Of a stretch of 64,000 bases of DNA, positions 1 through 47,866 are shown one piece after another. Below the pieces are notes generated by a model. That model was given only the letters and a program-made list of their open reading frames with translations. It was not told the DNA's origin and did no database searches. This DNA comes from Kosakonia sacchari. Lineage in GTDB: Bacteria > Pseudomonadota > Gammaproteobacteria > Enterobacterales > Enterobacteriaceae. Positions within the stretch are counted from its first letter, which is position 1; each line of letters opens with the position of its first letter. The DNA lies in the NCBI GenBank assembly GCA_900109485.1, contig FOAY01000003.1:428816-492815 (forward strand). The letters are read 5' to 3'. The translations under genes were made by a program, and so were the position numbers.

Positions 1-3000
1 TACGGCGAACGGCTTTGCCGGGACGCTCGGTAGCCTGACGCTGAACGCGCCGGGCGCCATTATCAACACCGCGCTGCTGTATGCGGCAAACAACCTGGCG
101 CTGTATGCCAACAGCATCACCAACCAGCGCGGCGATATGCTGGCGGGTAACAATCTGGTGCTGCAACGGGACGCGGCGGGGAATGCCAACAGCGAGGTGA
201 TCAACACCTCCGGCAGTATTGAAACGCGAAATGGCGATATCACCATTAAGACCGGGCATCTGCTGAATCAGCGGGATGGTTTAACAGTAAATACGGTAAA
301 AACTACGGCCCAGGTCATTCCAGGGGTCGGTGATCCTACCTTGAGCGTACATTATTCACTGCTTCCTACGGGAAGTTATGGGTACTACACGGTTAAAAAT
401 GCTGTGGAAGGCAACAACTGTGCAGGAGCTGATGGTGGGTGTTCTGTATGGATAGAAACGACTTATCACTATGCGCCGTTCGAAGGATATGACACCCAAA
501 AATTTGTTTTAAGTGAAACCCGGACGGATGTCAGCAGTAGTGGCGGAAGCGCACGTATCGCGTCAGGCCGGAATGCGGTGATTTCGGCAGGTGTGCTGGA
601 CAATAAAGCCAGCGATATACTCAGCGCGAATAATTTGTTATTGCAGGGGACGCAGCTTAATAACCAGAGCTGGCAAAACAGCACCTCTGCAGACGTTCTT
701 GTTTACAAATATGGGACGGGGAACCAGGTTACTTATGCGGAAGATGCGATTCCGGATGGCGGCTTAAAGAATAAAAACGATAAATATCAACAATATGTAC
801 AAGACATCGCTTATACCCTGACCGGGCACGAAATACAGACAACACAGGGCCAGCTTTACCGTGCGGTGATTCAGGCTGGTGGTAATGTTAGCGCGAATTT
901 CAGCAACAATATCAGTAATACCAACACCACGGCTCACACCGGTGGTGTTACAGGAACCATCATTGCCCCGTCACTGAATACCCTGAGCAATCAGGGTATC
1001 GGCGGTAGCGTGGCGAAACAGGCGCTGGCCGCAGGGCCGGTCGCGGTGAATTCCCCGCAGTGGCAGGATCAACTGCAAAATGCGCTGCAACAGATTAACG
1101 GCGGCAGCGGGCTTGATAACGGCGCGGCGCTGGCAACGCCGGGCAGCCAGCAGAAAGGCAATGCCAGCCTGGGCAATAGCGGCAGCCTGGCCAGCGCAGG
1201 CGTGACCACGGCAGCGCTGAAAAACACCGGCACGACACCGCAGCAGGGCAAAACCGTCGATACCAGCGCTTACCCGCTGCCGACCGGCAATAGCGGTTAT
1301 TTTGTGGTCACGGATAACCCGAAAAGCCCTTATCTCATCACCGTAAACCCGAAACTCGACGGCCTGGGGCAGTTGGATCCGGCACTGTTTGGCGATCTGA
1401 ATAAGCTACTTGGCATCACCCCGGCCGCCGCGCCGCGTGAAACCAATCCGACGTATACCAACGAGACGCAGTTCCTCGGTTCGTCGTATATGTTAGGCCG
1501 CCTCAACCTGAACCCCGATTATGACTACCGGTTCCTCGGCGATGCGGCGTTCGACACGCGCTATGTCAGCAATGCGCTGCTGAACCAGACCGGCAGCCGC
1601 TACCTGAACGGTATGGGTTCCGATCTTGCGCAAATGCAGTATCTGATGGATAACGCCGCCAGCGCGCAGCAGTCGCTTGGGCTGTCGTTCGGCGTGGCGC
1701 TCACCGCGGATCAAATCGCTTCCCTCGACCACAGTATTTTGTGGTGGGAGAGTGCGACGATTAACGGCGAGACGGTGATGATCCCCAAACTTTACCTGTC
1801 GCCGAAAGACGTCGCGGTGAACAACGGCAGCGTGATCGCCGGGAACAACGTCAGCCTTGACGGTGGCAACGTCACCAACATCGGCAGCACGCTGCTGGCG
1901 CGTAACGATCTCAGCGTCAACAGCAGCGGGCAGATAACCAACAGCAATGATGCGCTGCTGAAAGCGGGCGGCAACGTTGATCTCAGCGCCATTGGCGATA
2001 TCAGCAACATCAGCTCCACCATCAGCGGCAAAACCGTGGCGCTGGAGAGCGTGGAGGGCAGCATCAACAACCTGACGCTGGCCGATCAGTATGCGCTCAA
2101 CACGCAGGGTAAATCGGGTTCGGTCAGCATCAGGGACACCACGCTTGGCAGCATCGCCAGCATTACCGCGACGGATGGCCTGTCGCTGGTGGCGGACAAG
2201 GACATCACCTTTACCGGTGCGACGGCCTCAGCGGGTGGCGCTCTGTTGATGGACGCTGGCGGCAATATCGCCGTTAATGCCATCCAGAAAAATGAGGCTT
2301 ACAGCCAGTCCGGTTTCCGCAATCTCACGGATACCGGCCGCTCCACCGTCGGTTACCAGGGCAGCAGCATTGCCGCGGGCGGCAATCTGGCGATGCAGGC
2401 GGGCAACAATCTGACGCTCAGCGCCAGCAATGTCAGCGCCGGGAAATCGGCACAGTTGTCGGCAGGCAACGATCTGAACCTCGACGCGCGGCAGACCAGC
2501 AACGCCAGCCGCAGCGGCAAAAGTGAAAATCACAGCACCGGCGTCGATCGCACCACGGTCAGTGCCGGTGACAATCTGTTGTTGACGGCAGGCCGGGACA
2601 TCAATTCGCAGGCCGCCGGGCTGGCGGCAGAGCAGCAGGTCGGCATGCAGGCAGGACGCGATGTCAATCTGCTGGCGGAAGCCACCACCCAGGGCGACAG
2701 CTACAAAGCCAGCAAGAAAACGGTCATTAACGAGCAGGTCCGCCAGCAAGGCACCGAGATTGCCAGCGGCACCGACACCACGATTATCGCCGGGCGCGAT
2801 ATGAATGCCGCAGCGGCGCAGGTATTGGCAAAAGGTGATGTCGGGATTTCTGCCGGCCGCAATCTGACTCTGACGACCGCGACCGAAAGTGATTACGACT
2901 ACTTTGAAGAGTACAAAACCAAAAAAGGTTTTCTGAGCAAAAAAACGACACACACCATCAGGGAAAACAGCTCGACCAATGAACTGGCATCACTGGTGAG

Positions 3001-6000
3001 TGGCGATAATGTCTCTCTGCAGGCGGGCAATGATCTGCTTGTCAGAGGATCAGCCGTCACGGCGAGCGGTGATATCGCGATTAAAGGGGGAAGCGATGTC
3101 ACCATTGATGCCGCAACGGAAAACGCCAGCAACTACAGCATGAAGAAAACCACCAAAAGTGGGATTTTCGGCGGCGGGCTGGGCATCACCATTGGTTCGC
3201 AGTCATCCAAAGAGACGCGCAAAGGGGCGCAGGTTACGCAAAGCGATTCGCGCAGCATCATTGGTACTTCTGCGGGCAACATTATCATTGAGGCCGGTGA
3301 TAAAGCGAAGCTGGTAGCAACCAATATGGTTGCCGGACGGGATGCGGCAGATACCACCCGTAAAACCGGACATATCGATGTGAAAGCCAGCGATATTGAG
3401 ATCGTGGCGGGCAAAGATGTGGTCAGCGGTTCAGTGAAACAGGAGAGCAAAAGCAGCGGTATTGGGATCTCGCTCTCTAACCCGATTATCGACACGGTTC
3501 GCAATCTCCGCGATATCGTCAAAATGGGCGGCAGTGGCATCACGCAGGCGAAAGCGCTCGCCGGGGAAGCGGCCGCTGCAGCGTTTGATATTTCTGGTGG
3601 GGGAATGCAGGCAGCATTACCGATCACTTACGGTAAATCCTCTTCCAGTAGCGAAATGCACTACACCGGCGAATATGCCGTGGGGAATACCCTGACCTCT
3701 GCAGGGAACGTTCAGTTGTCGGCAACCGGTGCGAAAGGTAACGGCGATGTGCTGATTAGTGGCAGTAAAATCAGCGCGAAAGAAGCGGCGATTATCGAAG
3801 CACAACGCAATGTGGACATCATTCCGTCCACCGATACGCAGGTCAGCAGCAGCAAATCCAGCAGTAAGAGCTGGAGTGTGACGGATGCACTTCCGGGCGC
3901 AGGTTCGGTGATTCGAACCGTCAGCGGTGGCCCGAATCACGGCGCCAGCGTCCTGCCATTCAGCTACAGCAAAGCAAACAGCAACGAGAGCAGCCAGACA
4001 ACGGCGCAGACCGGCAGCCAGATAACCGCGAATGATATTTATATCAACAGCAAAGACGGCCATGTGAATATCTCCGGCAGTTCACTGGCGGCAATCAATG
4101 ATTTGATGCTGTCAGCTGAAAACGGGGATATCACTGTCAGTACCGGTAATAACCATGTCGTGAAAGAGAGTTCCGGCAGCCAGACGCAAATTGGTTCGCT
4201 CGGCGGCGATGGTTACAGCGGGACGGTGGGCTGGAACAATAATAAATATGCCTCCGAACTGGATCGTAACCAGCAAAGCACACTGCGCAGCCAGATTGCC
4301 AGCCGTGATGGCAATGTGAGTCTGCAGGCCGGAAAAGATGTGGCGATTGATGGCGCAGACATCAGCGCCGGGAAATCGGTCACGCTTGGTGGGGAAAACG
4401 TGCGTCTGGACGTCAGCGAAGACAGTCTGAAAACGCACAGCGAATCCTCTAATACGCAATACGGCGTGAAAGCCTCGGTATCGGGCTGGGCTGTTACGGC
4501 GGTACAGGCGGCGGAGAATGCGGCACGTGCTACGGAAGAGAACCGCGATCCCCGTCTCTCCGCCATCTATGCTGCGCAGGCAGGGCTGAGCGTTGCCACG
4601 GAAACCGTCCTGTCGGACATGAATCCGTCGGCATTCAAAGTCAGTGTTGACGTGACTGCCGGTTCGTCAAAACAGCAACAGGATTACAGCAGCCAGCAGC
4701 AACAGGGCAGCACCATTAAAGCGGGCGATACCGTCAATATTAAAGCTCGCCAGGACATTGAAGGTGCGGGCGTCAGTATTGCCGCGAAAAATATCAACCT
4801 TGATGCCGGGCGCGATATCACGCTTACCACGGCACAGGATATGGAGAAACTGAAAACCCGCGCCAGCGGCAATCAGATTTCCGCAGGAGCGGGGTTTTCA
4901 TTCGGTGGTTCACAAAATGGTGTCACCATCCAGGCGGGGGCAAGCACTTACAGCAACAAAGAGGATGGCAGCACTCTTACTCATCACAACAGCACCCTCA
5001 CCGCTGAGCAAAACCTGACCGTTACCAGCGGGCGCGATACCACGCTGAAAGGGACAGAACTTAAAGGTGACAAGGTTGCTGTTGATGTGGGCCGCAACCT
5101 GACTATCGCCAGCCAGCAGGATACGGATGAGTATGCCAGTAAGTCGGCTTCTGGTGGTGTGAGCGTCAGTGTCTGCGTTCCTCCTATCTGTGCGGGGAAT
5201 GTGGTGCAGGGTAGCGTTACCGCGGCTGGCGGGAAGATCACCAATGACTACAAATCGGTCATTGATCAAAGCGGCATTTATGCGGGCAAAGGCGGTTTCG
5301 ATATTTATGTGGGTAATCACACCCAGCTCGACGGAGCGGTTATCGCTTCTGAAGCCGATGCCGGTAAAAACCGTCTCGATACCGGAACGCTGGGCTGGAG
5401 TGATATCCACAACAAGGCTGAGTCAGGCGGCAGTCAGTTTGCTGTCAGTGTCTCCGGCGGCGCTAATAATGGAGAGAATGGTAATCTGCAACCCGCGTCA
5501 ACCGGGCTGCCGGGAACGTCACTGGCCAGCGTGTCCGACAGCGCCAGTAGCACCACGCACAGTGCGGTGGCTGCTGGCGATATCATCATTCGCGATAAAG
5601 ACAAGCAACAGCAGGATATTGCCGATCTGAGCCGCGATACTGCCGGTGCACACAAGGCGCTGGAGAACAATTTTGACAAGGGCAAAATTCAGGATCAGTT
5701 AGACATTCAGACCCAGGCCGTTGCGTTGGGTACCCAGGCGATGGATGCCTGGCGGCAGAGTCAGTTGGACGAGGGTAAAAAGAAAATCCGCGCGGATATG
5801 GAGGCGAACGGTGAACTGGATGGCCTGACGGAACAGCAGATTGATGACAAAATCGCGGGTTCTGCACAGTATAAAGAGGTCGATAAGGAATACGGCGTCG
5901 GCAGTGATTTCTGGCGTAACGGCACTGCGCTGACGGGGCTACTGGCGGGGGCGCTGGGTGGAAATGTCACTGGCGGGATGGCGGCAGGCGCAGCACCGTA

Positions 6001-7279
6001 TGTGGCAGGGCTGATAAAAAGCGTCACCGATGGTCATAAAAGCGCGCGCATTGCACTACATACCCTGGCGTCAGCAGTGCTGGTGCAGTTGCAGGGCGGC
6101 AATGCTGCTGTCGGAGCGGCAGGTGGTTTTATCGCGGCGTCGAGTTCAGAAGCGCTGTCGCTGGCGTTTTATAACAAAGAGCCGGATAAGCTGTCACCGG
6201 ATGAAAAAACGGTGATAGTGAACCTTGTGGCTGCGCTGGGTGCGGCAGGCGGTAGCGTGGCTGCAGGGAACAGCAGTGGTATCGGCGGCGGAGCAAATGC
6301 GGCACGGGTGGAGGTTGAGAACAATACTTTTCTGATAAGCCTCCATCCTGATGCCTATCAGAATGAATTTAAGAAAAGTGGCGACCCACTTTACCGACTG
6401 ACTGATAAATATGAACAGGAAGTACGGGAACATGCTGAAGCTGGTGATCCCGTAGCAATACAGGAATTACATAATCTCGAAGAGGCGAAAGAAAACGCTA
6501 AAGCAGCTATTGCTCTTTATGGCGTCCTTGCTGGAGGTTCCACCGCGCTTGCTGCTACTCCCGAGCTGATTGCCCTTGTCAGGGCGACTGCCAGTAGTTG
6601 CGCGGGAAACCCGGTGCTCTGTGCTAATGAAGTTAGTATATGGATAGCAGAAATGGCTGTCGGGGATGCGCTTCCGGCAGGTCTGACAGCCGCGACGGTC
6701 AGTAAGATGTCGGTAGCTGAACTGTCAGAGCTGAAGGCGTTGATGGCTGTTGAGAAACAGACGGGCCAGAAAGTCAGTGCGGAATCACTTGAAACGGTAA
6801 TGTTTAACTCTGGCGGAAAGGGGAACTGGACCAAGGAGCTTAATAATCCACAGCCTAATAAAATTTATCCGGTTGATGGAAATAAAATCTTTAAAACTGA
6901 TGAATTAGGCCGTACGTCAAGTGTTGAAGCAAACCTCTCGCTGATCACAAATGATCGTAATACGTACCAGCAATGTAAAACAGGTAAATGCGGACTAGAT
7001 AGTGATGAAGGAGGACATTTAATTGCATCTATTTTTAATGGTCCGGGAGAAAAAATAAATATTGTTCCTATGGATGCAAACCTAAATAAAGGTGAGTGGA
7101 AGAAAATGGAGAATTACTGGGCTAATGAGCTTAAGTCTGGTAATTCAGTTAATGTAAAAATAAATCCTGTTTATATTGGTGAAAGCCAGAGGCCAGTCAG
7201 TTTTGATGTCGTTTACTCTATCAATAATGACCGACCTGTGGTAAAAAACATTAATAACATGCCAGGAGGAGTGAAATGA
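1..7279 (+). CDS. cdiA: CdiA contact-dependent growth inhibition effector, 3' part (5' end outside window)
   Basis: Large surface filament that delivers a C-terminal toxin into neighbouring bacteria. The frame is already open at base 2, so the TPS domain and first FHA repeats lie outside the window. In order, the visible part shows: the end of the FHA-1 repeats; a divergent segment (about 290-900) that should be the receptor-binding domain; a Tyr/Pro-rich YP-type domain (about 1260-1800, with the run NQTGSRYLNGMGSDLAQMQY); long FHA-2 repeats rich in AGxDxxL (1800-5500); a Gly/Ala-rich pretoxin segment (about 5930-6300); and the VENN motif at 6314-6325. After VENN comes an entry domain with a hydrophobic stretch and a Cys pair, then a nuclease tip (about 6780-7279) with EGGHLIAS and NIVPMDANLNKGEWKKME. 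That pattern fits the DNA/RNA non-specific Endonuclease_NS_2 type seen in Bacillus YeeF. The stop overlaps the next gene by 4 bases. The toxin class is a motif-level assignment. Confidence 0.93.
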   Translation, partial: TANGFAGTLGSLTLNAPGAIINTALLYAANNLALYANSITNQRGDMLAGNNLVLQRDAAGNANSEVINTSGSIETRNGDITIKTGHLLNQRDGLTVNTVKTTAQVIPGVGDPTLSVHYSLLPTGSYGYYTVKNAVEGNNCAGADGGCSVWIETTYHYAPFEGYDTQKFVLSETRTDVSSSGGSARIASGRNAVISAGVLDNKASDILSANNLLLQGTQLNNQSWQNSTSADVLVYKYGTGNQVTYAEDAIPDGGLKNKNDKYQQYVQDIAYTLTGHEIQTTQGQLYRAVIQAGGNVSANFSNNISNTNTTAHTGGVTGTIIAPSLNTLSNQGIGGSVAKQALAAGPVAVNSPQWQDQLQNALQQINGGSGLDNGAALATPGSQQKGNASLGNSGSLASAGVTTAALKNTGTTPQQGKTVDTSAYPLPTGNSGYFVVTDNPKSPYLITVNPKLDGLGQLDPALFGDLNKLLGITPAAAPRETNPTYTNETQFLGSSYMLGRLNLNPDYDYRFLGDAAFDTRYVSNALLNQTGSRYLNGMGSDLAQMQYLMDNAASAQQSLGLSFGVALTADQIASLDHSILWWESATINGETVMIPKLYLSPKDVAVNNGSVIAGNNVSLDGGNVTNIGSTLLARNDLSVNSSGQITNSNDALLKAGGNVDLSAIGDISNISSTISGKTVALESVEGSINNLTLADQYALNTQGKSGSVSIRDTTLGSIASITATDGLSLVADKDITFTGATASAGGALLMDAGGNIAVNAIQKNEAYSQSGFRNLTDTGRSTVGYQGSSIAAGGNLAMQAGNNLTLSASNVSAGKSAQLSAGNDLNLDARQTSNASRSGKSENHSTGVDRTTVSAGDNLLLTAGRDINSQAAGLAAEQQVGMQAGRDVNLLAEATTQGDSYKASKKTVINEQVRQQGTEIASGTDTTIIAGRDMNAAAAQVLAKGDVGISAGRNLTLTTATESDYDYFEEYKTKKGFLSKKTTHTIRENSSTNELASLVSGDNVSLQAGNDLLVRGSAVTASGDIAIKGGSDVTIDAATENASNYSMKKTTKSGIFGGGLGITIGSQSSKETRKGAQVTQSDSRSIIGTSAGNIIIEAGDKAKLVATNMVAGRDAADTTRKTGHIDVKASDIEIVAGKDVVSGSVKQESKSSGIGISLSNPIIDTVRNLRDIVKMGGSGITQAKALAGEAAAAAFDISGGGMQAALPITYGKSSSSSEMHYTGEYAVGNTLTSAGNVQLSATGAKGNGDVLISGSKISAKEAAIIEAQRNVDIIPSTDTQVSSSKSSSKSWSVTDALPGAGSVIRTVSGGPNHGASVLPFSYSKANSNESSQTTAQTGSQITANDIYINSKDGHVNISGSSLAAINDLMLSAENGDITVSTGNNHVVKESSGSQTQIGSLGGDGYSGTVGWNNNKYASELDRNQQSTLRSQIASRDGNVSLQAGKDVAIDGADISAGKSVTLGGENVRLDVSEDSLKTHSESSNTQYGVKASVSGWAVTAVQAAENAARATEENRDPRLSAIYAAQAGLSVATETVLSDMNPSAFKVSVDVTAGSSKQQQDYSSQQQQGSTIKAGDTVNIKARQDIEGAGVSIAAKNINLDAGRDITLTTAQDMEKLKTRASGNQISAGAGFSFGGSQNGVTIQAGASTYSNKEDGSTLTHHNSTLTAEQNLTVTSGRDTTLKGTELKGDKVAVDVGRNLTIASQQDTDEYASKSASGGVSVSVCVPPICAGNVVQGSVTAAGGKITNDYKSVIDQSGIYAGKGGFDIYVGNHTQLDGAVIASEADAGKNRLDTGTLGWSDIHNKAESGGSQFAVSVSGGANNGENGNLQPASTGLPGTSLASVSDSASSTTHSAVAAGDIIIRDKDKQQQDIADLSRDTAGAHKALENNFDKGKIQDQLDIQTQAVALGTQAMDAWRQSQLDEGKKKIRADMEANGELDGLTEQQIDDKIAGSAQYKEVDKEYGVGSDFWRNGTALTGLLAGALGGNVTGGMAAGAAPYVAGLIKSVTDGHKSARIALHTLASAVLVQLQGGNAAVGAAGGFIAASSSEALSLAFYNKEPDKLSPDEKTVIVNLVAALGAAGGSVAAGNSSGIGGGANAARVEVENNTFLISLHPDAYQNEFKKSGDPLYRLTDKYEQEVREHAEAGDPVAIQELHNLEEAKENAKAAIALYGVLAGGSTALAATPELIALVRATASSCAGNPVLCANEVSIWIAEMAVGDALPAGLTAATVSKMSVAELSELKALMAVEKQTGQKVSAESLETVMFNSGGKGNWTKELNNPQPNKIYPVDGNKIFKTDELGRTSSVEANLSLITNDRNTYQQCKTGKCGLDSDEGGHLIASIFNGPGEKINIVPMDANLNKGEWKKMENYWANELKSGNSVNVKINPVYIGESQRPVSFDVVYSINNDRPVVKNINNMPGGVK

Positions 7280-7608
7280 GCGAATTAGATATATTTCATA
7301 ATAGAATTGGTCAGTTATTGGTCGATGCAGGGCCAGCTGACGCAACAAAGATAATCGTTTGTGCCAAGCTGTCTCTGGATGGAGAGTCATGTGAGTATGA
7401 GTATGACTATATTGATTTCAATGGAAAAAAAAATTGGTTTGTCCCGGATGGATTAGCCAGTCATAATCTTCGAATATTACTAATAGAAATGAGGAATGCA
7501 TATGTTAGGAATAATTTGACCAACGGTAAATCTGGGTGGAATGAATGTAAAATAATAGTTGATATTAAGAGTGGTAAAATAAATATCGACTTTAAATATG
7601 AAAATTAA
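7276..7608 (+). CDS. cdiI: CdiI immunity protein, YezG-like
   Basis: A 110-residue protein that should neutralise the nuclease tip of the upstream CdiA in the cytoplasm. Its ATG overlaps the cdiA stop (ATGA), the normal toxin/immunity coupling. The sequence YDYIDFNGKKNWFVPDG followed by SHNLRILLIEMR resembles the YezG/DUF600 immunity family, whose Bacillus member protects against the YeeF DNase. This agrees with the independent nuclease call for the toxin. Base composition is clearly more AT-rich than the cdiA body, as is usual for exchangeable toxin/immunity cassettes. The family assignment is from memory of the motif pattern; the immunity role is supported mainly by position. Confidence 0.78.
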   Translation: MSELDIFHNRIGQLLVDAGPADATKIIVCAKLSLDGESCEYEYDYIDFNGKKNWFVPDGLASHNLRILLIEMRNAYVRNNLTNGKSGWNECKIIVDIKSGKINIDFKYEN

Positions 7609-7919
7609 TGACAAATTCGCCTACAGTTAGTTAGATTTTTCGCCCTGATATGCATTGTTCGCTGTCAGGGGAGATTTGTTTTTGCCGCGCCTGAGGAGGT
7701 TATTGCATTGGCTAAAGACATGGGGGGCGATGTATTGGGCGGCCCGTATAAATATCTGGCTGGCTTGATTATAAACCCAGCGTAACCTGGATCAGGGGGT
7801 TGCACCATTATCCAGGAGTACTGGTAGTACAATATTTACCATGCTCGTTTTTAAATGTACCTGGAGGAACTGCATAGGCAACCAATGGACTTGTTTAATC
7901 CCTGAGAAATACTGAGTAA
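7609..7919 (+). other. Gene-free decayed stretch after cdiI
   Basis: About 310 AT-rich bases with no plausible gene. A short open stretch near 7683-7785 would encode a peptide with ALAKDMGGDVLGGPYKYLAG before a stop. It looks like the end of an older toxin or immunity gene but I cannot name it. An imperfect inverted repeat (CCCTGA ... TCAGGG, about 7642-7669) could be a weak terminator for cdiI. Confidence 0.4.
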
Positions 7920-8108
7920 TTACCCTCTAACGATGCGACGAAAAGTATTGCAGAAGTTAATGTCTGGAAAGATGATAAAGCATTAAATAATTATTTTTCT
8001 GGAGCACAAATTGGTGACGGTATTTTTGAAAATAGTACATATATATTAACCTTCGCAAAAGGTAGGACGTGGTACGAAACCGTATCACCTATAGGTAAGT
8101 GGAAATGA
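7920..8108 (+). pseudogene. 3' remnant of an orphan CDI-type toxin
   Basis: An open frame without a start (stop codon just before it) encodes about 62 residues ending in TFAKGRTWYETVSPIGKWK. Its TGA (8106-8108) overlaps the ATG of the following barstar-like gene (8105-8107), exactly the 4-base overlap used by cdiA/cdiI pairs. I therefore read it as the last part of a displaced toxin domain whose 5' portion has been lost. Barstar-type immunity suggests a ribonuclease target, but the fragment itself was not recognised as barnase. Confidence 0.55.
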
Positions 8109-8400
8109 GTATGGACGTAATTAAATTTGATGGTTCTCAAATAAACAGTAAGGCTGATTTTCATCAGATTATTGCCGAAAGTTGGATTTTGGCCCCTATT
8201 ATGGCCGTAACGTCGATGCACTTTGGGATATGTTAAGTACGGGAATGGCTGGTGGGATGGTTATTGTTTGGGAAAATTCAGAACATTCAAAACAGAGAAT
8301 GGGTGACGATTTCGACCTAATCATCAGTGTCTTTGAACAAACAAAGCAACGATATTTAGGGAAAGGCAATGATAACGTTTTTGACTATGTGCTCAACTGA
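8105..8400 (+). pseudogene. Barstar-like orphan immunity gene, frameshifted
   Basis: The first frame (from 8105) reads MSMDVIKFDGSQINSKADFH and then runs off. The frame one base away continues from about 8182 as LDFGPYYGRNVDALWDMLST and on to LIISVFEQTKQRYLG, ending at 8400. The joined reading has the hallmark order of barstar (barnase inhibitor) proteins: an N-terminal beta strand, FGxYYGRNxDALWD, and a C-terminal amphipathic helix. A single missing T near 8178-8182 (GAAAGTTGG where GAAAGTTTGG would restore frame) explains the break. It follows a toxin remnant with an ATGA overlap, so it was probably a cdiI-type immunity gene and is now inactive. Confidence 0.75.
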
Positions 8401-8437
8401 CTGAAATAACATGCTTTAGTCTATCTCTTATCGATAA

Positions 8438-8590
8438 TTGTCAATCGCGTATGTGGTGGGATTGATTAAAAATGCCATTGATAGGCATAAAGGCGCGTGT
8501 ATTTTATTGCATACATGCCAGTACAGTGGCGCGGAGGTGCCTGGAACAAATGTGGCATCGGTGCCGGGAGGGGCATTCGATCTGCGTTGC
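8438..8590 (+). pseudogene. cdiA: Relic of a CdiA pretoxin segment
   Basis: The reading AYVVGLIKNAIDRHKGACIL and LHT is a degraded copy of the intact cdiA segment at about 5998-6070 (PYVAGLIKSVTDGHKSARIA, LHT). After that the similarity decays. No start, RBS or continuing domain is present. It shows that this AT-rich stretch once carried another full cdiA 3' module upstream of its own toxin. Confidence 0.6.
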
Positions 8591-8744
8591 CTGAAACGTT
8601 ATATCTCACGTGAAGTCTATACAATCCTGCGGAATCAAACCTGGCAGATTAACAGTACTTAAATAATGACTTGACTCTTAGAAGGTCGTACAAGGAAGTC
8701 AATATACATGCCATTAGTGGCCGTCTTTCCTTGAATCACATGCG

Positions 8745-8955
8745 CTGGAAGGCAGCATGAGCCGTCGTGGTAACTGTCACGACAACGCGGTTGAAGAAAT
8801 TTTTTCCAGTTACTGAAAAGTATGAACGGGTAAAGAAAAAGATCTACGGTACTTGGGAAGAAGCTCGCAGCGATATTTTTGATCACATCGAAATGTTTTA
8901 TAGCAGTAAGCGGTTGTATGGTTTGAGTGCTCAGATGTCAATGGCGGAGTATTAA
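8745..8955 (+). mobile_element. IS3-family transposase (orfB) C-terminal relic
   Basis: Across two frames the translation gives LEGSMSRRGNCHDNAVEE, then KYERVKKKIYGTWEEARSDI and EMFYSSKRLYGLSAQMSMAEY. This is the end of the DDE integrase core of IS3-group orfB proteins (MSRRGNCxDNA ... PKRRHGxLGxxSPxxF). At least one frameshift lies near 8815, and the rest of the transposase and both terminal repeats are missing. It is a dead remnant inside the orphan toxin array. Confidence 0.75.
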
Positions 8956-9050
8956 CATAAATATTATTAACGGCTCGAAATTATCTATATTATTCATGGC
9001 GATTAATATCGATTTATTACGACTATACCGAAAAATGGAGTAACTAAGTG

Positions 9051-9395
9051 ATGTTCATAGAAAATAATCCTGATGAAATTGAGTTGCTCTCTTTTTTTGA
9101 AAGTGAACCTGTTTCGTTTAAACGAGAAAATGTTAGTTTTTTATATACTGCAAAAAACCAATATGGTCTTAGCGTTTATTTTTCTTTTAGTATTGTTGAA
9201 GGTTGGATTCAATACTCAATGAAACTACATGATAACGAAATATCTCATGCTTGTATTGATGGCGTTAACTCATTTAGCATAAAGAATGATAAACTTGGTG
9301 ATTATATTTATATTGAGGTTGTTACAGAGAATTTAATTAATAAGGTTGAAATACGTATAAAGCCGGATATAAAAATTCGCTCTGTTGTCAGATAA
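9051..9395 (+). CDS. Small unrecognised protein, possible orphan immunity protein
   Basis: An intact 114-residue acidic protein from very AT-rich DNA. TGGAG at 9036-9040 serves either the GTG at 9048 or the ATG at 9051; I chose the ATG. The product is soluble with alternating beta-type strands (VSFLYTAKNQYGLSVYFSFS, YIYIEVVTENLINKVEIRIK) and no signal peptide or membrane segment. I do not recognise the family. It lies between an IS3 relic and an IS256 relic in the orphan CDI array, and size, composition and context fit an immunity gene that outlived its toxin, but no toxin remains beside it. Confidence 0.5.
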   Translation: MFIENNPDEIELLSFFESEPVSFKRENVSFLYTAKNQYGLSVYFSFSIVEGWIQYSMKLHDNEISHACIDGVNSFSIKNDKLGDYIYIEVVTENLINKVEIRIKPDIKIRSVVR

Positions 9396-9504
9396 CGCGA
9401 ATTCCGAATGTTGGGCTACTGTTATGTTTGCTTCAGCCACTCCAGAGTGGAGTGTTAGAAATTCTGTGTCATCACCGTAATATGTAACAAAAAAGGAATG
9501 GCGC

Positions 9505-9673
9505 ATGTTCCAGCCCTTTGATTTCGACAAAGCTCTTAAAGTACTCAACCGTTCAGACATTAACGCGGTAAAGATGGCATCTTAACAGCGTTAATCAAAC
9601 AGTTAACTGAAGATACCCTGTCAGCATGTCTTGACTCCCATCTGGTTCTGGATGTGGAGACAATCGTAAAAAT
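9505..9673 (+). mobile_element. IS256-family transposase N-terminal relic
   Basis: The reading MFQPFDFDKALKVLNRSD, then after a frameshift GKDGILTALIKQLTEDTLSA and CLDSHL, matches the start of IS256-type Mutator transposases (FDFDKALKxL...GKDGILTPLIKQLTEAALxAELDSHL). It stops abruptly at 9673, exactly where sequence duplicated from cdiA begins. The element is only a scrap, but its edge marks a recombination junction. Confidence 0.7.
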
Positions 9674-9792
9674 GTAATCTGCAACCCGTGTCAACCGGGC
9701 TGCCGGGAACGTCACTGGTCAGCCTGTCCGACAGCGCCAGCAGCGGCATCGGCGGCGGAGCAAATGCGGCACGGGTTGAGGTTGAGAATAAT
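9674..9792 (+). repeat. Duplicated cdiA segments fused at the head of the orphan toxin
   Basis: Bases 9674-9740 match cdiA 5481-5547 at about 64 of 67 positions. Bases 9738-9792 match cdiA 6271-6325 at about 51 of 55, ending in VENN codons at 9781-9792. The 720 bases between these two blocks in cdiA are missing here. The copy is in the same reading frame as cdiA, so crossing over at either block would put the orphan toxin onto cdiA. Confidence 0.85.
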
Positions 9793-10647
9793 TCGCTACG
9801 GGCGGTTGTTATTGCCGGGAAGCTGGCGATTCAGGCTTGCGCGAAAACGCCGGCTTGTAGCACCGCTCTGGAAGAAGAGGGATTGGGTGCATTACTGGGA
9901 ATTGGTGCCGCCAAAACCGTAATGGATAACTTGTCTTCTTCGGAGCAGATGTCTGTCTTTTCTGTAGCCATGAATGGTGGCCGTGCGGATTTGCTCGAAA
10001 ATCTGACGCCGGAACAACGCGCAGCCTATGATTATATTGTTGAGCAGGATAAAAAGGGACCATTCCACTTATTGCCTGCGCAACAGAGACTTAATGATGG
10101 CATTCGCGGGCCGGGGCATACGGAACTGCCAATAGCTGATCAGGATCCAACAGGTGGCAAACTGGTTAATCCTGACCGGAGTGGTGAACAGGGAGCAACG
10201 CATACTGGTTCTGATCAACCCATAGAGCAGGGGGCTACGAACACAGGAAATCTTGATGGCTCACCCGATACAGGGGGTAATACTACCGTAACGCCAGTTC
10301 CTGACGGGCCAGATAAAGATGATTTGGCTTATTTAGCAGGAAACTATGAACCAAATAAAAACTCTGTTGGAAATATGGGGGAGTTTCTGAAACAACCGGG
10401 CTTCGGTAGTACCGTTAAGGATAATACCCAAAAAACTAATCAACAGTATCAAGGGCAAACTATTTATAAAGCGACTGATAATATTGGCGATTATATTAAA
10501 AAAGGTGATCAGTTTTATCTGGATGGTTTGCATAAAGATCATATTGAAGTCTTTGATAAAAGAGGGAACTTCAAAGCCGTTGTCAATCTCGATGGTACTA
10601 TAAATAAAGCAAAAACTGATGCTGCCTTAGGTAGGGAATTAAAATGA
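9688..10647 (+). CDS. Orphan CdiA-CT toxin module with VENN motif
   Basis: The frame opens just before a possible GTG at 9688 with no ribosome-binding site, so it is probably silent until recombined into cdiA. It encodes a stub of CdiA sequence, VENN (9781-9792), a short entry region with ACAKTPACSTALEEE, a Gly/Thr/Asp-rich linker with repeated EQGATxTG (about 10180-10250) and a C-terminal domain from about 10330. The end FYLDGLHKDHIEVFDKRGNF then VVNLDGT is rich in His/Asp/Glu. It loosely recalls the D-x-x-H ... E catalytic set of colicin E3-type ribonucleases, but I cannot place it firmly in a toxin family. It overlaps the next gene by 4 bases. Confidence 0.75.
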   Translation: MSTGLPGTSLVSLSDSASSGIGGGANAARVEVENNSLRAVVIAGKLAIQACAKTPACSTALEEEGLGALLGIGAAKTVMDNLSSSEQMSVFSVAMNGGRADLLENLTPEQRAAYDYIVEQDKKGPFHLLPAQQRLNDGIRGPGHTELPIADQDPTGGKLVNPDRSGEQGATHTGSDQPIEQGATNTGNLDGSPDTGGNTTVTPVPDGPDKDDLAYLAGNYEPNKNSVGNMGEFLKQPGFGSTVKDNTQKTNQQYQGQTIYKATDNIGDYIKKGDQFYLDGLHKDHIEVFDKRGNFKAVVNLDGTINKAKTDAALGRELK

Positions 10648-11009
10648 CAGAACTTAATAAGATTAAAGCGGTAATTCATGATTTGGCCGAGTTAGTAGCG
10701 GGAAAAACTAGTTTTAATGATGATTACTGGAGCTTAGATTATAAATTAGACTTAGATAAAGAATTAAGTAATGAGTTAAATAATTTACAAATAGAGCTGG
10801 AACTTTTAACTAATGCTCTTCATGAAAAAGATCTAGTGACTGTTAAATGTGCTTTAGTTATGGCTAGGCTTTATTCACTTAATTTATCAAATTTATTCCT
10901 TGGCATATTTGAGGATATAGAAAAAGTAGGTTGGTCTGAGGAATTTAAATTACCAAATGTTCCTGATGGTTATCAAATACCTGAGCATTACAACTATCCT
11001 AAGAAATAA
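10644..11009 (+). CDS. Putative immunity protein of the orphan CdiA-CT
   Basis: A 121-residue, largely helical, acidic cytoplasmic protein (LDLDKELSNELNNLQIELEL, then ALVMARLYSLNLSNLFLGIF). Its ATG overlaps the stop of the orphan toxin (ATGA), as in cdiA/cdiI pairs, and a strong terminator follows directly. I do not recognise the family; the immunity role is inferred from position, size and AT-rich composition. Keeping it intact while the upstream toxin is promoterless makes sense if it protects against sibling cells or earlier toxin use. Confidence 0.65.
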   Translation: MTELNKIKAVIHDLAELVAGKTSFNDDYWSLDYKLDLDKELSNELNNLQIELELLTNALHEKDLVTVKCALVMARLYSLNLSNLFLGIFEDIEKVGWSEEFKLPNVPDGYQIPEHYNYPKK

Positions 11010-45130: not shown

Positions 45131-47866
45131 ATGGAAATTAATAAAAATAAACGTGGAATGGTTAAATTGAACCCGCTCGCTGTGTCTGTCTTACTGGCGT
45201 TGCCAGTTCTCGCTGAGGCTGCTTCTGTCAATATCCCCGGCGGACAAATAGTCAATGTAAACGGTGTTCCGGTTGTAAATATCAATGCGGCGAATAGCAA
45301 AGGTATTTCCCATAATATTTATGACCAGCTTAATGTGGATAAAGAAGGGCTGATATTTAATAACAGTGCCGAAGATGTTGAAACGACTTTGGCTGGGCGT
45401 ATTGCAGGCAACGCCAATCTGGCTGCTGGTACGGCAAAAATTATCCTGAATGAAGTGACGTCAAACAATAAAAGTGTCATTGACGGAAAAATGGAAGTGG
45501 CAGGCGATAAAGCGCACCTGATCATCGCCAACCCGAATGGAATTACGGTTAATAATAGTGGTTTTATCAACACCGAAAAAACCACTCTGACAACAGGCAG
45601 GGCTGACATTAAGCAAGGTGAGCTGAAAGGGTATTCAGTTGCGGGTGGCACCCTGGCTGTGAAAGAGATCACCAGCGACTCGCCCACCGAGATTCTGGCG
45701 CGTTCTGTTGTGGTTAACGGCGAGATCCGTGCCGATCAGCTTACCGTTATTGCCGGTAACAACTACGTGAACACGAAAGCACAGGCGATCGGAACGGTAA
45801 CCGGCAGCGGCGCGAAAAATGCCTATGGCATCGATATTATTAAAATTGGCGGAATGTACGCTAATCGAATCACGCTGGTCAGTACGGAAAGTGGGGTTGG
45901 CGTACGTAATGCAGGCATTGTCGCGGGTGGAGTCCAGGGCGTGGCGATCGACAACTATGGTCACCTGGTGAACATTGACGCAGCGATCACTTCCGAAGGG
46001 GCTCTTTCTGTCAGGACGAACGGTACGCTGAATAACGAGTCAGGGACGTTACGCGGTACCGGGAAAGTCTCGATCGACACGGTTACTCATGCGATTAATA
46101 ACAGCAAAGCAGGGAACATTAGCTCGTTGTCTGCCGTCGATATTGGCAGCGGTGAATTCAATAACAGTAATGGCAAGATCATGTCCAATGGTCAGTTGGT
46201 CATTAACACCCATAATAAGACATTGACCAACTCGGGCACTGCAAATGAAAGTGTTATCCAGGGGGGAACCGTGATGCTCAAAACGGCTACCCTGAATAAC
46301 AGCAAAGGCCGAATAACGGGTAACTCAGTGGCTGCTGAATCCACTGTGATTAATAATACCAGCGGTGCTATTGATGCAGTCAATGACGTGCAATTGATCA
46401 GCGCCGGGAATATTGATAACAGCCGTGGTTTGATTCATTCCCGGCAGGGTCAGATTCAAATAGCTGCACAGAAGACGTTCTCGAACCGTGATACTCTTTC
46501 GACGGATGCTAATAACTCCGCCGCAATGGGCGTACAGGCGGATGCCGGCGAGATAAAAATCATAGCCAGCTCGATCAATAATATGCGAGGCACGCTCAAT
46601 TCAACAGGGAGTGTTATTGCTGAAAGCAATAATGAACTGGTAAATGCTTACGGAAATATTTCTGCAACGGGCAACGTCATTCTCTCCAGCGCCGCTGCGA
46701 TAAATAACTACAGTGGTCGCGTTCACAGTGATAGCACCATTTTTGTTGATGCTGCGTCTTTAGATAATAGCTCCTGGAAAGGCATGCTTGATGGGAAAAA
46801 AGGCGTGCGTATTGAACTTAGCGGAATGCTGGATAACTCCACCGGTCTTATCATCTCTACTGAAGGGGATGTCGCGGTGAAGGTGAAAGCGCTGGACAAT
46901 ATGGGTGGGATTCTGTCCGGAAATAACGTAGATATAACCTCCGCCTCTACTGTATATAACGTGGCAGGATTGATTAATGCCAATAAAAAACTCAGCATCA
47001 ATGCGCTTTCTGAAATCGATAACCGATACGGGGACGATTTCACTAACGGTTTTGGAAGCAATATAGATGCAGATTCACTTACGGGCGGAATATATGGCCG
47101 TGAGGGTATCAGTATCACTGCCAGAAATGTCAAAAACAACTATAGCAGCATTATTGCCGAAAAGGGTCCATTATCATTGAATGTTAATGACAGCATCATT
47201 AACGATCGTGGTTATATGGCGAGCCTTGCTGATATGTCGATTATGACGAAGAGTTTAAAAAATAATAATGGCATCATCGCGGCAATGGGGAATCTGTCGA
47301 TCGATGTAGGCAGTTTGTCAAATACAGGGTCGGGTTCGCTCAGTAATAATAGCGCTGCGGGTATCATTTCGTCAGCGCAGAAAATGGATTTAATGGTCAA
47401 CGGCAATTTTACCAATAGCGGCTGGATCAGCGCGAAAGATGATGCCGTTATTAGTGTTGTGGGTAAGTTGACGAACAATAAATCCATTACCGCTGATAAG
47501 GCATTAACTATCAGGGCCATTGATGGTATTGCCAACAATATGGATATCATTGCTGCATCTGATTTAATTATAGACACCAATGGCAGCCTGACGAATGCGG
47601 CTGCGGGTAAGATCTCGGGTAAGGTAACAAATATCAATGTTGCTACTGATATCAACAATAAAGGTAATGTGCTTGCCAGCGATGAGTTAACTCTCAGTGC
47701 CGGACGCACTATCACCAATACAAGCAATATGGTCACCGATGGGTATGCATCAATTACGGCTCAAACTGTAAATAATAGCGGTAATAAAGCATCTCTCGGT
47801 GGTAGTAAAGGTCTTGTGCTGGAAGCTGACAAAGTCATCGGCACAGGTATCCTGGTAGGGTTGTAA
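45131..47866 (+). CDS. Short TpsA exoprotein (filamentous-haemagglutinin type) without adjacent partner
   Basis: A 911-residue secreted protein. The N-terminus has a signal region (LNPLAVSVLLALPVLAEA) and a TPS domain with IPGGQIVNVNGVPVVNINAA, GISHNIYDQLNV and the diagnostic NPNGITVNNSGFIN. The rest is a run of about 20-residue beta-helix repeats (NNSGTL, INNSxG, ADxLT forms). It lacks VENN, a pretoxin domain or any C-terminal toxin, ending soon after SLGGSKGLVLEADKV. TpsA proteins need an outer-membrane TpsB pore; none lies nearby, so it may borrow the CdiB of the left-end CDI locus or one elsewhere. Probably an adhesin; it could also be a truncated longer gene. Confidence 0.82.
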   Translation: MEINKNKRGMVKLNPLAVSVLLALPVLAEAASVNIPGGQIVNVNGVPVVNINAANSKGISHNIYDQLNVDKEGLIFNNSAEDVETTLAGRIAGNANLAAGTAKIILNEVTSNNKSVIDGKMEVAGDKAHLIIANPNGITVNNSGFINTEKTTLTTGRADIKQGELKGYSVAGGTLAVKEITSDSPTEILARSVVVNGEIRADQLTVIAGNNYVNTKAQAIGTVTGSGAKNAYGIDIIKIGGMYANRITLVSTESGVGVRNAGIVAGGVQGVAIDNYGHLVNIDAAITSEGALSVRTNGTLNNESGTLRGTGKVSIDTVTHAINNSKAGNISSLSAVDIGSGEFNNSNGKIMSNGQLVINTHNKTLTNSGTANESVIQGGTVMLKTATLNNSKGRITGNSVAAESTVINNTSGAIDAVNDVQLISAGNIDNSRGLIHSRQGQIQIAAQKTFSNRDTLSTDANNSAAMGVQADAGEIKIIASSINNMRGTLNSTGSVIAESNNELVNAYGNISATGNVILSSAAAINNYSGRVHSDSTIFVDAASLDNSSWKGMLDGKKGVRIELSGMLDNSTGLIISTEGDVAVKVKALDNMGGILSGNNVDITSASTVYNVAGLINANKKLSINALSEIDNRYGDDFTNGFGSNIDADSLTGGIYGREGISITARNVKNNYSSIIAEKGPLSLNVNDSIINDRGYMASLADMSIMTKSLKNNNGIIAAMGNLSIDVGSLSNTGSGSLSNNSAAGIISSAQKMDLMVNGNFTNSGWISAKDDAVISVVGKLTNNKSITADKALTIRAIDGIANNMDIIAASDLIIDTNGSLTNAAAGKISGKVTNINVATDINNKGNVLASDELTLSAGRTITNTSNMVTDGYASITAQTVNNSGNKASLGGSKGLVLEADKVIGTGILVGL

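Follow-up and report, generated by a model that had tools for sequence, protein, structure and literature searches.

The analysed stretch of Kosakonia sacchari DNA (64,000 nucleotides, referred to as the window) carries, behind its cdiBAI cluster, an orphan cdiA-CT/cdiI pair whose 5' end consists of two blocks homologous to cdiA. We consider it very probable that this is an old and probably silent spare pair, that the two blocks are inherited leftovers, and that the pair would be redeployed, if ever, by a rare deletion at the second of them.

The CDI locus and the orphan pair

The contig carries a complete CDI locus. Upstream of the window it encodes a 560-aa ShlB/POTRA partner followed by a CdiA with a TPS domain, and in Pfam searches the part of CdiA that falls in the window contained Fil_haemagg_2 (FHA-2) repeats, PT-VENN (aa 2016-2064) and then an NS_2 tip (Endonuclea_NS_2, PF13930, E 4.2e-38), which in the genus sample was found in this genome alone (1/15). 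The orphan module follows the cluster on the same strand (Table 1). Its frame contains VENN; the match to the PT-VENN profile covers only positions 20-51 of its 52 and, at 20.2 bits (E 6.8e-04), falls just below the cut-off of 20.3. The immunity ORF overlaps the end of the toxin, and an immunity homologue was present at 26 of the 33 toxin-bearing loci examined, which are not all independent; because of this pairing, the orphan immunity gene is probably the cognate one. The VENN motif, the position behind cdiBAI and the immunity gene downstream support the identification of the orphan as a CDI toxin, as a preliminary description of this DNA had proposed.

Table 1. Features of the CDI region, in window coordinates
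Feature	Coordinates	Strand	Remarks
Main cdiA, 3' part in window	137-7279	+	whole gene 3980 aa, start upstream of window; cdiB before it
Block 1 in cdiA, upstream of pretoxin region	5481-5547	+	64/67 identical to 9674-9740
Block 2 in cdiA, VENN end of PT-VENN	6271-6325	+	51/55 identical to 9738-9792
Entry-domain part common to toxin X of G009 and G012	6326-6762	+	tip exchanged at about 6762
Main-tip immunity gene, YezG-like	7276-7608	+	PF04634, E 4.2e-05
Barstar-like immunity remnant	8182-8397	+	PF01337, E 1e-15
Degraded cdiA pretoxin fragment	8450-8578	+	43% over 44 columns to CdiA aa 1955-1998, E 2.4e-04
IS3-family transposase remnant	8767-8955	+	NF033516 E 0.0025, rve_2 E 0.0023; both under curated cut-offs
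Toxin X last codons and stranded immunity gene (9048-9395)	9011-9395	+	same pair in G009 and G012
IS256-family relic, left end and transposase start, right side cut at 9674	9449-9674	+	186/229 to E. coli element
Two-block junction	9674-9792	+	block 1 to 9740, block 2 from 9738; in-frame 726-nt deletion between
Orphan cdiA-CT frame	9688-10647	+	VENN end, entry domain, linker 10139-10332, toxin domain 10333-10644
Orphan immunity gene	10644-11009	+	DUF6853, PF21593 E 6.6e-06, at cut-off

The orphan, whose first start in the ORF list is a GTG at 9688, has an in-frame TAA (9667-9669) directly upstream. Since there is a stop codon at this position and no export part, the orphan is probably not delivered at present; its immunity gene may still protect. 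Promoter-like sites numbered 8, against 12.5 in shuffles, and terminator-like sites 4, against 3.2 (sd 1.7). Compared with the orphan of a second species of the genus (G009), the orphan showed 10 synonymous changes at 162 sites and 11 non-synonymous changes at 480 (dN/dS 0.36), and the frame is stop-free in both species. The corresponding dN/dS was 0.20 for the main PT and entry region and 0.12 for a flanking gene. The synonymous excess of the orphan gave P 0.022 under an even mutation model and 0.068 with a 30% synonymous expectation, and its substitution make-up was not distinguishable from that of main cdiA (Fisher P 0.40) or of the flanking gene (P 0.10). This weak excess neither proves nor excludes use, and it could mean occasional translation or redeployment. 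Translation from the GTG as a small protein, for example one that titrates or stabilises its immunity protein, would agree with the frame kept open in two species and its dN/dS, but we regard it as highly improbable given the weakness of the excess (even if not distinguishable from that in main cdiA), the stop codon just upstream, and the orphan CdiA-CT of E. coli EC93, which according to the accessible part of PMC3150448 was transcribed yet not detected.

Two blocks of cdiA homology at the orphan junction

Within the window, the repeat finder paired 5481-5551 with 9674-9744 at 94% and 6271-6325 with 9738-9792 at 93%. When the 119-bp junction was used as query against the whole genome of the strain, only three places were matched (E 1.3e-56, 2.5e-25 and 1.0e-16), and chance similarity of the blocks was rejected, the repeat scan and these E-values being far beyond it. 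The two duplications described earlier, of 5481-5547 at 9674-9740 and of 6271-6325 at 9738-9792, were therefore borne out, and re-reading of the junction confirmed that both blocks keep the codon phase of cdiA. The deletion between them is also present, although its reported size of 720 bases is slightly off: the offset from cdiA to orphan is 4193 for block 1 and 3467 for block 2, a difference of 726 nt or 242 codons. Uninterrupted identity reaches 29 bp in block 1 and likewise in block 2. The three differences between block 1 and cdiA all change the residue, and the four in block 2 are all silent.

As had been stated, block 1 begins where an IS256 relic ends, the alignment of the relic stopping at the first base of the block. 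The relic corresponds to the left end and initial 57 codons of an element in E. coli that carries the annotation 'IS256 family transposase'; a 12-bp piece close to the left end of this element is repeated in inverse orientation close to its other end. Both the similarity of the transposase gene and the left terminal end were found, as expected of an IS256 member. The barstar-like remnant further upstream represents another lost immunity gene. The stretch before it (7938-8105) was considered as a barnase and was not called, having no Pfam match. Far downstream, at 45131-47866, a 911-aa ORF looks like the N-terminal portion of a two-partner exoprotein.

The junction in a related species and the history of the tips

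The genome of G009 is colinear with window positions 9007-10332 at 1276 of 1326 columns, IS256 relic and junction included, and the junction itself lies at the same place with 117/119 identical positions. It is thus most simply older than the split of the two species, before which the trimmed leader would already have been present. Within the blocks, the orphan is closer to the G009 orphan (66/67 in block 1, 54/55 in block 2) than to its own cdiA (64/67 and 51/55), so that the junction is no fresh copy and bears no sign of conversion. Of the seven variable sites, five separate both orphans from cdiA, and recent gene conversion between orphan and cdiA was rejected on this ground; at the other two (5526 and 6277) the K. 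sacchari orphan alone differs. The homology that led the preliminary description to speak of blocks copied from cdiA is real, but these are better understood as what remains of an older 3' end of cdiA.

A third genome, G012, has both blocks, lying apart within a cdiA frame that is intact; they are 86% and 91% identical to their orphan counterparts. Its main pair consists of a toxin designated X and the X immunity gene; the same pair is an orphan behind another main tip in G009, and the window retains only the last codons of X (from about 9011) and its immunity gene (dN/dS 0.17 between the window and G009). The window, G009 and G012 align gap-free up to 6762 and then diverge, and on this alignment NS_2 took the place of toxin X where the entry domain ends (about 6762), not at VENN. 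Beyond 10332 the orphans of K. sacchari and G009 carry different toxin domains. The mappable tip changes of the lineage thus have their breaks at about 6762 and about 10332, outside both blocks. In the comparison with G012, dS was 0.78-1.27 over the body of cdiA; it was 0.65 for block 1 and 0.95 for the 18 codons of block 2, with 0.53 in the interval separating them. Further along, 6326-6480 gave 0.43 and 6480-6762 gave 0.072, and the X immunity gene gave 0.26. The low value in 6480-6762 indicates that CT segments were exchanged between species inside the entry domain.

Such movement of CT segments across species (0.072 against 0.78-1.27 in the cdiA body) would also suit a different origin, in which the module arrived by horizontal transfer, already deleted and together with IS fragments, and was never the tip of the resident cdiA. 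The orphan entry domain and toxin are unlike those of the main tip, and IS relics flank the stranded immunity gene on both sides, as this origin would allow. The orphan blocks, however, are nearer to their own cdiA than to that of G012, and the module is colinear in two species. Block closeness and colinearity fit local origin and transfer from a close relative equally well, and on balance we hold arrival by transfer to be possible, though doubtful.

The trimmed leader, entry domain and linker of the two orphans are 92% identical at the protein level. The orphan might accordingly be pictured as a tip-exchange site in its own right, in which toxins were swapped at about 10332 while undelivered, behind a shared leader, entry domain and linker, and the frame was kept by occasional reloading onto cdiA through the VENN block; this we judge unlikely. 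The linker (10139-10332) also occurs in G010 and in the main CdiA frame of G011 (79-80% DNA identity), and it could be another place where tips exchange. Overall, three related genomes make this a relatively dated, layered CDI locus, in which the first tip, abandoned immunity genes and real tip breaks can be seen, and in which in-frame homology between orphan and cdiA need not mean recombination between them.

The blocks as possible crossover points

We computed the products of crossover at either block. A crossover at block 2 loses 3467 bp and leaves an in-frame CdiA with the orphan tip. At block 1 it loses 4193 bp, and the resulting CdiA is short of 242 codons, among them the beginning of PT-VENN, a domain thought to mediate processing (PMC9424206); delivery by this product would probably fail. 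A productive crossover is plausible at block 2 (VENN) only. The earlier proposal that recombination would exchange the NS_2 pair for the orphan pair with a loss of about 3.5-4.2 kb is therefore correct in frame and size and applies to one block, and the equivalence of the two blocks as crossover points is not supported. Either crossover would also take out two immunity genes, the YezG-like one and the stranded one of toxin X, a cost that had been left out of the account. Loss of the main immunity gene has been described as a drawback of such recombination, and a prior duplication has been suggested (accessible parts of PMC3150448 and PMC4927057).

The proposed dependence on RecA is doubtful and the rate is probably low, because unbroken identity is at most 29 bp per block, whereas the Rhs homology considered below extends over 522 bp at 95%. 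With identity limited to 29 bp and a divergence of 4-7%, RecA recombination should be poor. PMC5426353 (available text) describes rare RecA-independent recombination at perfect runs of 11-20 bp. On the reading that we prefer, that of an old spare pair, redeployment, if it ever occurred, would be a rare deletion between 6271-6325 and 9738-9792 with the loss given above for block 2, more likely via slippage or annealing of short repeats than via ordinary RecA recombination. Its product would be a CdiA read in frame into a tip that may be an E3-like rRNase, followed by that tip's own immunity gene, and block 1 would remain a leftover and no useful crossover point.

That both blocks are working crossover points, at which a RecA-dependent switch from the NS_2 tip to the orphan tip takes place in part of the population, appears very unlikely. 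Although the reading frame is kept in both blocks, the orphan frame does show weak constraint, and there are precedents in a Y. pestis Microtus deletion of the same kind and size (PMC3150448) and in Rhs recombination (PMC3967940), as far as the accessible portions of these papers describe them, the unbroken identity is short, the blocks have not been homogenised with cdiA, and the block-1 product lacks its 242 codons. Recombinants would in addition lose two immunity genes and be open to siblings, as PMC3150448 and PMC4927057 state, in the parts available, for the main cdiI. The locus bears no sign that the blocks have been used, the orphan being closer to the G009 orphan and the mapped tip changes having broken elsewhere, in a comparison of one genome per species in which rare recombinants would not show.

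Comparison with known orphan modules

Orphan cdiA-CT/cdiI modules are known, for example CTo1 of E. coli EC93 and CTo2-o4 of Y. pseudotuberculosis PB1 (PMC3150448, Poole 2011). As in these, in the accessible text, the K. sacchari orphan is a VENN-encoding fragment behind cdiBAI with its own immunity gene, and IS debris is found in several of the loci. The PB1 orphans likewise have cdiA homology upstream of VENN; in K. sacchari, unlike in EC93 and PB1 as described there, this upstream homology consists of two blocks between which 726 nt have been lost in frame. An orphan was fused to cdiA in Y. pestis Microtus 91001 by a deletion of 3,557 bp (PMC3150448), and the K. sacchari orphan pair would in the same way be loaded onto cdiA if about 3.5 kb were lost between the VENN regions; the event that happened in 91001, on that account, is here only a possibility. 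Orphan modules and their loading onto cdiA by a VENN deletion have already been published; the module is of an ordinary kind with a clear layered history.

For Salmonella Typhimurium LT2, evidence for recombination between main and orphan rhs has been presented (PMC3967940, Koskiniemi 2014). Main and orphan tips are joined by homology within one locus in both cases; the homology reported in the available part of that paper is the 522 bp mentioned above, whereas here it amounts to 67 and 55 bp. If reloading did occur at 29 bp of perfect identity, the homology needed for a tip switch would lie well below that of Rhs. The H47 genomic island (PMC5426353) resembles the present arrangement, in the portion of the paper available, in its short imperfect repeats kilobases apart, there with perfect runs of 11-20 bp, and in a deleted form that loses immunity. 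In contrast to the present locus, it is a microcin island with repeats 12.6 kb apart and is not a CDI system.

The orphan toxin domain and its immunity protein

The entry domain of the orphan differs from that of the main tip, and its linker matches that of the E. cloacae CdiA of PDB 4NTQ (E 1.7e-12). We modelled the 104-residue toxin domain from 26 sequences (pLDDT 89.6). When structures were ranked against this model, five colicin E3 entries came first (Z 7.1-7.8), 4ntq was sixth (Z 4.8), and the seventh was an unrelated protein (Z 4.1). In Foldseek searches with the model all E-values were above 0.5, so that the assignment to colicin E3 is not secure and serves as a lead; a Z below 8 may reflect a common arrangement only. 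The catalytic set of colicin E3-type rRNases consists of Asp, His, Glu and Arg. In the 26 toxin sequences, taken without a residue-level alignment to E3, D64, H67, H70 and E72 are invariant and R101 is nearly so, and the orphan tip may possibly be an E3-like rRNase. The orphan thus shares the linker with the E. cloacae CdiA-CT, and its model ranks colicin E3 first; it differs from both in that the toxin domain shows 8-12% identity when aligned by structure and the immunity gene is assigned to DUF6853, and its activity is a predicted one. For the orphan protein NCBIfam held no family, Pfam gave for the toxin domain a weak Enolase_N match only (E 0.16), and the toxin profile, searched against PDB sequences, returned nothing below E 0.27. 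The immunity protein matched one uncharacterised PDB entry, 3nym (E 0.0038).

Distribution of the junction and of the toxin domain

In the genus sample, 4 of 15 genomes matched the junction, two of them across both blocks (K. sacchari and G009). A 161-bp query matched 28 genomes of the family sample, which comprised 392 genomes and did not include G009; a strong single match over both blocks was obtained in the K. sacchari genome only. When the 28 loci (L018-L045) were re-aligned, eight besides that of G012 had a best or second match that crossed the seam, all weak (76-92% over 21-67 columns), and none of these lay in a CDI-like frame among the loci fetched. On this re-alignment, the two-block junction as a family-wide feature was rejected. 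Of the 392 family genomes, 34 matched the toxin domain, four of them only weakly (E above 1e-4). With the four weak ones set aside from the 50 places listed, 4 of 46 sat in frames of more than 1000 aa, and the short frames around the others may also stem from contig ends. The long frames measured 3392 aa (G344, with VENN), 4064 aa (G083, with VENN), 1781 aa (G263, no VENN in the available part) and 1375 aa (G089, Rhs-like). In an Erwinia MAG the toxin ends a VENN-bearing frame of at least 2481 aa (93% over 100 residues). The toxin thus ends long VENN-bearing frames in the Erwinia MAG, G344 and G083, which indicates that it is carried by full-length CdiA elsewhere. At the G083 locus (L068), a similar entry domain and linker precede the toxin at the end of the frame, as judged by eye, and this locus appears to be a natural full-length counterpart of the orphan.

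In the E. coli collection a 1511-bp query matched 318 of 5426 genomes, with the IS part alone matched among the 30 matches listed, and five plasmid records contained parts of the orphan protein. A more distant form of the toxin domain occurs at L077-L080, where the preceding stretch is Rhs-like in L077, L078 and L080.
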